NCBI GenBank assembly: GCA_937967425.1
Contig: CALBST010000404.1
Location: 1-43,569, forward strand
Direction: 5' to 3'
Source of the DNA: an uncultured Caulobacteraceae bacterium
GTDB taxonomy: Bacteria; Pseudomonadota; Alphaproteobacteria; Caulobacterales; TH1-2
Length of the DNA: 43,569 bases
Shown here: in pieces, positions 85 to 1,733 of the stretch
Position numbering within the stretch: position 1 is the stretch's first letter
Layout: the number at the start of each line of letters is the position of its first letter
Position numbers and translations under genes: made by a program
Notes under the pieces: generated by a model
What the model saw: the letters and a program-made list of their open reading frames with translations, nothing else
Databases searched by the model: none
What the model was told of the DNA's origin: nothing

Positions 85-366
85 TCAATCCAACGAGTAG
101 CGTTTAGAATGTTTTCTGCGATAGTTCGTCAGAACCTTCGTTACGACGCGTTCGGCCATTGCAGAATCGAACTCGATCATCTTCAGGACGAGCGCCTGAT
201 AGGATCGCGAAGACTTTGGTTTAAAGTCTGCGGAGACGATGCGCTGTTCCGCCAACTCGGCAATGAGGGCCGTACGCAACGCCTGGGTCACGCCTTTACC
301 TTTGGGCGGATGGGCCCACGGTGGGAGTTTGGCTGTCACTTCTTCCCAGTTGTCTTCAAAGAACAT
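85..366 (-). CDS. Small hypothetical protein paired with TIR-ParA ATPase
   Basis: A 93-residue protein that I do not recognise. It begins ATG with only a weak ribosome site (AAGTGAG) about 9 bases upstream. It lies 46 bases downstream of the TIR-ParA gene on the same strand, so the two are probably co-transcribed. The N-terminus is acidic and aromatic (MFFEDNWEEV), the middle looks helical, and the C-terminus is strongly basic (NYRRKHSKRYSLD), which could bind nucleic acid or the ATPase. There is no signal peptide or membrane segment. By analogy with ParA partners it might stimulate the ATPase or bind DNA, but that is inference from position only. It could instead be an effector or regulator of the TIR domain. 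The overlapping plus-strand frame has no family features. Confidence 0.6.
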   Translation of the reverse strand: MFFEDNWEEVTAKLPPWAHPPKGKGVTQALRTALIAELAEQRIVSADFKPKSSRSYQALVLKMIEFDSAMAERVVTKVLTNYRRKHSKRYSLD

Positions 367-412: not shown

Positions 413-1714
413 TCAACCTCTAATGCCAACTCTGAACGCCAACTCTTCTGCCACAGCTTCCAGCGCCGCATGCATTTCATCAGAGTAAGGTCCACTGCGA
501 GCATATGCCAATGTGTCCAAGGGATTCTCGGGCGCATCGTCTCTATTGGGCGTCTTCATGTAGGCGCTTTCGGGGATCCGCGCAGATAGCGTTCGTTCCC
601 CGTAGTTTCGGCTGGTTCTGAGCTGAGTTTCGACGTCGGAAGGGGCGGAACCGCGTTTGAAGCTGTTTACTAAAACGAGCTGGTCGGGAACAACAGTGGG
701 ATACAGCGCGGTCGTAATGTTTCTAAGTGCAACCAATCCGCGTAAAGCGAAGGTGTCCGGTGTAACTGGCGAGATGATGTGCGAACACGTTTCGAGAGCG
801 CATTCAGTTAGGAACGAGAAGCTTGGATTGCAATCGATAACGACGCAATCGTACTGCGAACGTGCAGTTGATACGAATTGCATAAAGCGGTTCTTGCAGA
901 CCTGCAGCTTCTCCGGCGAGTGACGTACGGTGTATTTAACGGTGGCGACCTGTCCGCAGACAAGGTCAAACGCACCCTGCAATCGACTGTGCGAGCCACG
1001 CCAAGCAATGTCAGGGGGGCTCGGCGGCTCGTAGCTCTCATCTGTGTTCAGAATTGTAAAATCCGCCGAGGGCGACGCTGCGTTCGTGATCTTGCTTGGC
1101 TCGAACGCACCTATGATTGTTTGCTCGGATTCCTGAAGGTCGTCCATCTCGCCCTGAGGCAAGATCATCTGAGTGAGGTTGTGCTGCGGGTCTAGATCGA
1201 TCAGAAGCACGCGCGCGGGTTTCATGCACGCGAGGGTGAAAAAGACGTTCGCTGACAGCGACGTCTTGCCCACTCCACCCTTCGAGTTGAGAATTGCCAA
1301 GACGGGACCAGCGCGACGTAGCTTATCCTTGGTCGTTGTGACGACTTGGTTGTGAAAGCGGCTCGGGCTCCCAAGATTCTTTCGCACAACCGCCGCCGCT
1401 TGTGTCGCCAAGAAGCTCAGGGAGTGGTTTCCAGGAACGGGGTTCACCTCGGCTACTATGATTGGCACTCGGTTGTGCTGTGCGTAGGCAATCTCACTAA
1501 CGACCCATTCGCTGAGACGCGCGCGATGTGTCTGGTACAAGACAAGCGCACCGGCGCTCGCGATCGCGCGCGATATCTCTAGTGGGAAAGCATCACCTTT
1601 GCGTATCTCGTCACGAGATACCCAGGGTCTGATCCCGTTATCGCGGAATGCGTTCGCCAGAGCATCGACGCCCCGGTCATCGCGATGCGAGTGACTTATG
1701 AATACGCTGTCCAA
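413..1714 (-). CDS. TIR domain fused to ParA/MinD-type ATPase, putative defence protein
   Basis: A 433-residue two-domain protein. Residues 1-115 form a TIR domain: it opens VFISHSHRDD, has the BB-loop-like stretch around W31-D41 (RDEIRKGD), and carries SEWVVSEIAYA, with E74 at the position of the NADase catalytic glutamate of TIR enzymes. Residues 136-433 form a ParA/Soj-type ATPase with deviant Walker A KGGVGKT (145-151, signature K145, phosphate-binding K150), Walker A' DLDPQ (173-177) and Walker B VVID (291-294). The start is TTG: the preceding GGGGGAGG is correctly spaced, and the TIR fold begins immediately. Known TIR fusions in bacteria often deplete NAD during phage infection, and ParA ATPases dimerise on DNA. 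I infer nucleotide-gated TIR activation, perhaps defence. The gene is less GC-rich than its neighbours, suggesting transfer. I know of no characterised TIR-ParA system. Confidence 0.88.
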   Translation of the reverse strand: MDSVFISHSHRDDRGVDALANAFRDNGIRPWVSRDEIRKGDAFPLEISRAIASAGALVLYQTHRARLSEWVVSEIAYAQHNRVPIIVAEVNPVPGNHSLSFLATQAAAVVRKNLGSPSRFHNQVVTTTKDKLRRAGPVLAILNSKGGVGKTSLSANVFFTLACMKPARVLLIDLDPQHNLTQMILPQGEMDDLQESEQTIIGAFEPSKITNAASPSADFTILNTDESYEPPSPPDIAWRGSHSRLQGAFDLVCGQVATVKYTVRHSPEKLQVCKNRFMQFVSTARSQYDCVVIDCNPSFSFLTECALETCSHIISPVTPDTFALRGLVALRNITTALYPTVVPDQLVLVNSFKRGSAPSDVETQLRTSRNYGERTLSARIPESAYMKTPNRDDAPENPLDTLAYARSGPYSDEMHAALEAVAEELAFRVGIRG

Positions 1715-1733
1715 ATTGAAGCCTCCCCCATTA

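Follow-up and report, generated by a model that had tools for sequence, protein, structure and literature searches.

A TIR-ParA fusion gene and its small neighbor as a candidate immune module in an uncultured Caulobacteraceae bacterium

The TIR-ParA gene and its protein

The window is the whole stretch of DNA that was analyzed, 43,569 nucleotides of a contig from an uncultured Caulobacteraceae bacterium. Positions 413 to 1714 of its minus strand hold one open frame of 433 amino acids (aa) with a TTG start, identified as a TIR-ParA fusion gene by the frame itself, Pfam, homologues, and a structure model; the plus strand of the same stretch is interrupted by stops when read as a frame. The initial annotation gave no strand for this gene. 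A Shine-Dalgarno-like GGGGGAGG (1722 to 1729, minus strand), read from the sequence, lies 7 nt ahead of the TTG start. Scans of the window for tRNAs and for Rfam families (gathering thresholds) gave no matches.

The TIR domain and a linker helix occupy residues 1 to 134 (1313 to 1714, minus strand). Pfam TIR_2 matched residues 4 to 91 at 56.3 bits (cutoff, 28; E = 5.6e-15), and ThsB_TIR matched the protein at 23.8 bits, just over its cutoff of 21.2. The predicted structure of the fusion (pLDDT 92) has a TIR-like order, with strands at residues 3 to 7, 29 to 32, 56 to 61, 85 to 89, and 108 to 111 and helices between them. The catalytic-type glutamate E74 (1493 to 1495, minus strand) sits in helix 69 to 80 of this model. 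A PDB sequence comparison gave weak matches of the window TIR to the TIR proteins 3h16 and 7uxr and aligned E74 with the Glu of 3h16 (E = 0.0026).

The ParA/MinD-type ATPase domain covers residues 138 to 430 (425 to 1303, minus strand). Pfam AAA_31 matched residues 138 to 335 at 86.3 bits (cutoff, 27; E = 3e-24), and the translation contains DLDPQ, VVID, and the deviant Walker A motif KGGVGKT (1262 to 1282, minus strand), which includes K145 and K150. All Pfam matches within the protein were of the TIR or ParA/MinD type. The top structural matches were Soj and plasmid ParA. Because the rows of the PDB structural comparison span residues 126 to 433 only, i.e., the ParA half, the TIR half was assigned from profiles and from the topology of the model. 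With TIR_2 and AAA_31 both above cutoff, the two domains that had initially been proposed, a TIR domain with a catalytic-type E74 and a ParA ATPase with the three motifs, were confirmed.

Comparison with known systems

Like the TIR NADase effectors AbTIR, Cat1, and Thoeris ThsB, the window TIR has a catalytic-type Glu, and the TIR-ParA family profile matches 7uxr, Cat1 (9mud), and AbTIR (8g83) in the PDB. Unlike those effectors, it is joined to a ParA ATPase. The ThsB models of PADLOC match the window TIR weakly (best, 28.2 bits), at a locus whose left flank is cut. The window protein shares a deviant Walker A motif and the ParA fold with ParA/Soj/MinD ATPases but carries an N-terminal TIR domain. 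A small gene follows ParA, and no ParB family matched among the partners tested. Unlike SPARTA, the protein contains no APAZ part, residues 138 to 430 being ParA.

A known PADLOC system was rejected as an identity for the protein: no full-length model matched, and the best match, at 35.7 bits, was to the TIR half. The Aga_TIR-PNTD1-PNTD2 model (430 positions) matched residues 2 to 80 only, with its TIR part. PDC-M28B was likewise rejected; it matched the ParA half of L212, L215, L213, L005, and P0031 weakly (E = 1.2e-5 to 0.0078) and was absent for the window protein.

Distribution of the family

Both domains were found in 36 of 120 homologues among the matches listed (1,275 found), with the window protein included, and the closest full-length homologue among the matches listed was 53% identical; 35 two-domain homologues were aligned. 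The initial annotation had proposed a search for the two-domain architecture in other genomes, and this search revealed a real family, present at E ≤ 1e-45 in 90 of 398 sampled genomes of one order, that of Hyphomonas beringensis (G001, locus L001); one of the 90, G210, matches in two pieces. Absence from all other genomes, an outcome named initially as a refutation, was thus not observed. The full fusion also appeared in 2 of 385 class-wide and 3 of 398 phylum-wide genomes, all of them within the order's set as well, and one further class-wide and two further phylum-wide genomes gave matches to the ParA part only. Among 72,556 plasmid records, and likewise among phage records, none had one place covering 80% of the TIR-ParA query. 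In viral contigs, the 80 loci listed (of 421 relatives) all matched from residue 102 or later, with no fusion among them.

The window GuaA is 95% identical to that of G120, 94% to that of G185, and 91% to that of G057, and each of these genomes carries a copy of the family. By these identities, the window belongs in or close to the order. Judged from sequence, the window copy is a separate, divergent paralogue, since the best full-length match to its protein in 60 genomes of G120's family is 34% identical (the G210 fragment reaches 36%). The two pieces in G210 (C8:228705-229509) contain an internal stop and lie in the aroG-msrB setting of locus L217; a pseudogene or a sequencing error is possible.

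Resident and accessory copies

AroG was encoded nearby in 13 of 13 resident-clade loci examined, and Gor, RpiA, and GlmU were also nearby in 8 of the 13. L221 has a Vitreimonas-type protein within the Hyphomonas-type aroG-gor-rpiA-glmU order and so bridges the two resident types. At L217, AroG and MsrB are present and a complete fusion is absent. L002 is titled Candidatus Sulfopaludibacter; its contig shows the Hyphomonas-like aroG-gor-rpiA-glmU order, with an AroG that shares 87% identity with the L001 protein, and the record is possibly a binning error. AroG was absent from seven accessory loci, some of which are on short contigs.

Base composition was compared with flanks of up to 1.5 kb. 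The gene-minus-flank GC difference was negative in eight of eight accessory copies (-0.026 to -0.107; window, -0.041). For residents, named for the residue at the position of E74, the mean was +0.015 (54 with D/Q) and +0.006 (24 with E), so that on average they match their flanks. The ranges overlap, since E residents reach -0.042 and degenerate residents reach -0.037, about the level of the window. The GC content of the TIR-ParA gene, 0.555, is the lowest of the 24 listed window frames of at least 250 aa, and that of the whole window is 0.629. On the basis of gene order in the 13 copies examined together with GC, we infer that the resident copies were inherited vertically.

The guaA flank of relatives aligned to the window up to position 1721 in two of nine genomes; in the others, the alignment ended earlier, at 1733 to about 2120. 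Beyond this flank, the four relatives whose frames were listed, L225, L226, L227, and L206, hold different proteins (619, 733, 654, and 284 aa, respectively), with no Pfam match at E ≤ 0.01. The window to the left of about 1721 may therefore be a variable spot.

Defense-type neighbors were found at two of the seven other accessory loci. At L212, AbiTii and a second TIR gene are close to the fusion, a tyrosine integrase lies beside the copy, and a tRNA-Ser is present. A protein about 7 kb away matches the PADLOC Aga_SIR2 models (E = 1.3e-177), and we take it to be a SIR2-APAZ-type protein. At L208, the fusion is preceded by a tRNA-Phe at a distance of about 1.2 kb, and a pPIWI-associated-nuclease-like gene lies about 3.4 kb downstream. 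A clear specialized defense neighbor was missing at the remaining five loci. Beside the L211 copy is a UvrD-type helicase, possibly a housekeeping protein, with matches to GajB models; a neighbor at L214 gave a generic RecD-like match. In scans that covered 75 of 91 listed accessory frames and 64 of 115 listed resident frames, some of which may be spurious, 54 PADLOC models matched accessory neighbors at E ≤ 1e-10 and one matched resident neighbors; the 25 of the 54 that were listed each matched in one protein, and the L211 helicase alone matches 44 models at 1e-8. Because of their GC below that of the flanks, their scattered positions, and the defense-type neighbors at two of the seven other loci, the accessory copies, that of the window included, look like acquired genes.

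Conservation of the active site

The alignment comprised 141 sequences, 96 unique ones from loci and 45 listed proteins. N143, K145, K150, D173, D175, and D294 of the ATPase were invariant (141/141). The E74 column held E in 63 sequences, D in 46, Q in 16, A in 1, and H in 1; the 14 gaps are sequences without a TIR part. E was present in 20 of 20 accessory members, whose TIR domains average only 27% identity, and E74 was tied with F5 and S7, at 100%, as the top of the 109 TIR columns in this group. Its place is taken by D in 42 and by Q in 16 of the 58 Hyphomonas-type members. Their TIR domain is still constrained, with a mean identity of 57% and ten other columns at 100%; the family as such therefore does not need the catalytic Glu, and the protein can be kept without it.

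The D/Q group forms one clade in a FastTree tree (support, 0.889), and the window protein groups with P0002, P0003, and P0005 (support, 1.0); several deep nodes are poorly supported (0.4 to 0.8), and the accessory copies do not form one clade. Accessory P rows were chosen by tree position, and P0039 was excluded from A1. Membership of the Vitreimonas-like group was decided by a motif near the Glu, and that of the "other E" group by the presence of E; evidence was therefore drawn from the accessory and D/Q groups alone.

The small partner gene

A 93-aa gene at 85 to 366 (minus strand), just downstream of the TIR-ParA stop, was identified as a partner gene by its relatives, its position, and a summed pairwise score. 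The initial annotation overlooked this small conserved gene. The contig stops 84 nt past it, which cuts the left flank. Its product has three relatives, at 68%, 75%, and 84% identity; in the 84% case, the match covers 73% of the open reading frame (ORF). In loci of the Vitreimonas type and in accessory loci, a small ORF comes directly after the fusion, frequently with an overlap of a few bases, and its product is 131 to 147 aa long across accessory loci, the window excepted.

Partners were sought with leave-one-out HMMs, and only loci with room downstream were counted (three loci lacked room, and three further ones were ParA-only or without TIR). Of 31 E-type loci, 29 were positive with the partner HMMs; the 54 loci of the D/Q clade were all negative. 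A separate retest of L169, which is the same as training member L216, gave E = 2.1e-6. On the Vitreimonas side, a partner was also detected at three D-type, one A-type, and one H-type locus, the last weakly (E = 0.00055). The two E-type loci missed were L211 and the window itself, and each has an ORF at that place. The HMM score of the window ORF was 2.1 bits, a value reached by 45 of 487 scored shuffles. Its summed pairwise score to ten partner proteins was 363 versus 270 for shuffles (standard deviation, 17), higher than 500 of 500 shuffles; L215 and L210 are close relatives, so that this sum is not ten independent tests. For single pairwise scores, the number of the 500 shuffles that reached the window partner was 0 for L215, 3 for L213, 12 for L210, 13 for L216, and 254 for L003.

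Pfam gave no convincing family, and no ParB family, for the partners tested. The predicted structure of the L003 partner consists mainly of helices (pLDDT 82.5; pTM 0.54), and a fold search of the PDB with it gave no match at E ≤ 0.001. A second partner-like ORF (L213:4391-4792; E = 1.2e-5) lies about 4.4 kb from the TIR-ParA gene of that locus.

A candidate NADase switch and its alternatives

Our preferred reading, to which we assign a probability of roughly 0.55, is that the window gene and its 93-aa neighbor are a horizontally acquired two-gene module that works as an abortive-infection-like NADase switch. The ParA half would bind ATP and, on DNA or some other surface, dimerize or form a larger assembly. 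The small partner would act as regulator or sensor, either controlling the assembly state of ParA or reporting infection. Assembly would gather the TIR domains, with cleavage of NAD+ and a stop to the infected cell as the outcome. We infer the NADase activity, the ATP-driven assembly, the role of the partner, the trigger, and the protection from the comparisons above. The protein of the Hyphomonas-like clade, with D or Q and no detected partner, presumably serves another purpose.

The initial annotation had called the fusion a candidate undescribed immune protein. For the window copy, this proposal is favored by the retained E74 and by the acquired look of the accessory copies. It does not extend to the whole family, which is not simply an immune effector, because residents lie near aroG (13/13) and 58 members have D or Q in the E74 column. 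A broader proposal, which we offer tentatively and at odds well below even, is that TIR-ParA and its partner make up a so far undescribed immune switch, with an NADase controlled by the ATP-driven assembly of a ParA-type protein on DNA or a membrane, and that in one bacterial lineage the gene was domesticated as a long-standing resident close to aroG, its active site altered and its partner missing. If this is true, a surface-patterning ATPase would be added to the mechanisms known to switch TIR effectors, and ParA-type ATPases as infection sensors would become a testable idea. Accessory copies with E and a partner, resident copies with E and a partner, and resident copies with D or Q and no detected partner would make up a natural series in which the change of an immune active site and the loss of a regulator could be followed.

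The same resident copies suit a different explanation, in which the fusion is a cellular positioning or regulatory ATPase, the TIR part is a protein-protein or assembly domain and no enzyme, and the accessory copies are dispersed paralogues of an ordinary chromosomal gene. Such a role would fit the nearness of AroG in all 13 resident loci examined, the constrained TIR of the D/Q members that lack the Glu, and the presence of the family in 90 of 398 genomes of the order. It fits poorly with the retention of E74 in the window's group and with the accessory copies, which are poorer in GC, sit at different positions, and in two cases have defense-type neighbors, and we consider it unlikely.

Lower still in our estimate is the idea that the genes form a module for the partition or maintenance of an integrated element, made of ParA and a small ParB-like partner, to which the TIR was added later. 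The order of ParA and then a small gene with frequent overlap, the structural matches to Soj and plasmid ParA, and the integrase beside the L212 copy are all as expected of such a module, but the partners tested match no ParB family, and the resident loci examined have common chromosomal neighbors. The plasmid and phage records, none of which covers 80% of the query in one place, speak against a plasmid partition gene. Residence in plasmid partition loci beside a ParB gene, named initially as evidence that would count against an immune role, was thus not encountered in these records or among the partners tested, but a small partner gene does exist.

Relatives without a TIR domain

Three loci, L005, L315, and L316, each encode a related ParA with a small gene after it and then a third protein resembling DUF5677; the DUF5677 matches (E = 0.00024, 0.045, and 0.045, respectively) are all below cutoff, and the three proteins align with one another. 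P0028 has a similar DUF5677-like part fused to ParA (E = 2e-9 versus the L315 protein). L283 has ParA and the small gene, and a DUF5677-like third gene was absent among the frames listed there. Homology between the small genes of the TIR-less loci and the TIR partners was sought and not found. Because a TIR-less ParA and a small gene accompany a DUF5677-like protein, these loci suggest a base, made up of ParA and a small gene, to which different, exchangeable effectors are attached.

No TIR-ParA protein was described in the literature searched, which was mainly open-access and was judged by titles and the beginnings of abstracts. The nearest printed ideas found, each in the part of the paper available to us, concern ParA/Soj-HEPN dyads, postulated to be toxin-antitoxin systems (Anantharaman et al. 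2013, PMC3710099), and a MinD/ParA-like effector domain of VMAP/vWA conflict systems, predicted to be inactive (Kaur et al. 2020, PMC7159879). As far as that text goes, the TIR-less relatives resemble the dyads in pairing a ParA-type ATPase with a putative toxin, here the DUF5677-like third gene, with no HEPN nature implied for its product; the window locus differs in having an N-terminal TIR as effector and an extra small gene (PMC3710099). The VMAP/vWA systems, on the same footing, also place a ParA-like domain within a conflict system, but in the TIR-ParA family the six tabulated ATPase residues are invariant (PMC7159879). A toxin-antitoxin-like pair kept by addiction, with TIR-ParA as toxin and the small protein as antitoxin, would agree with the postulated dyads (PMC3710099), the third gene of the three TIR-less relatives, and the failure to detect a partner at any of the 54 D/Q-clade loci that have room for one. 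On the other hand, a single loss may account for the whole D/Q clade, and the partner is retained in five residents whose residue in the E74 column is A, H, or D. This is the least probable of the explanations considered.

Next to one ParA/small gene/DUF5677-like triplet, a 617-aa protein (L317:5690-7543) has a HATPase part and a sub-cutoff HSDR_N-like part and is a possible defense gene.
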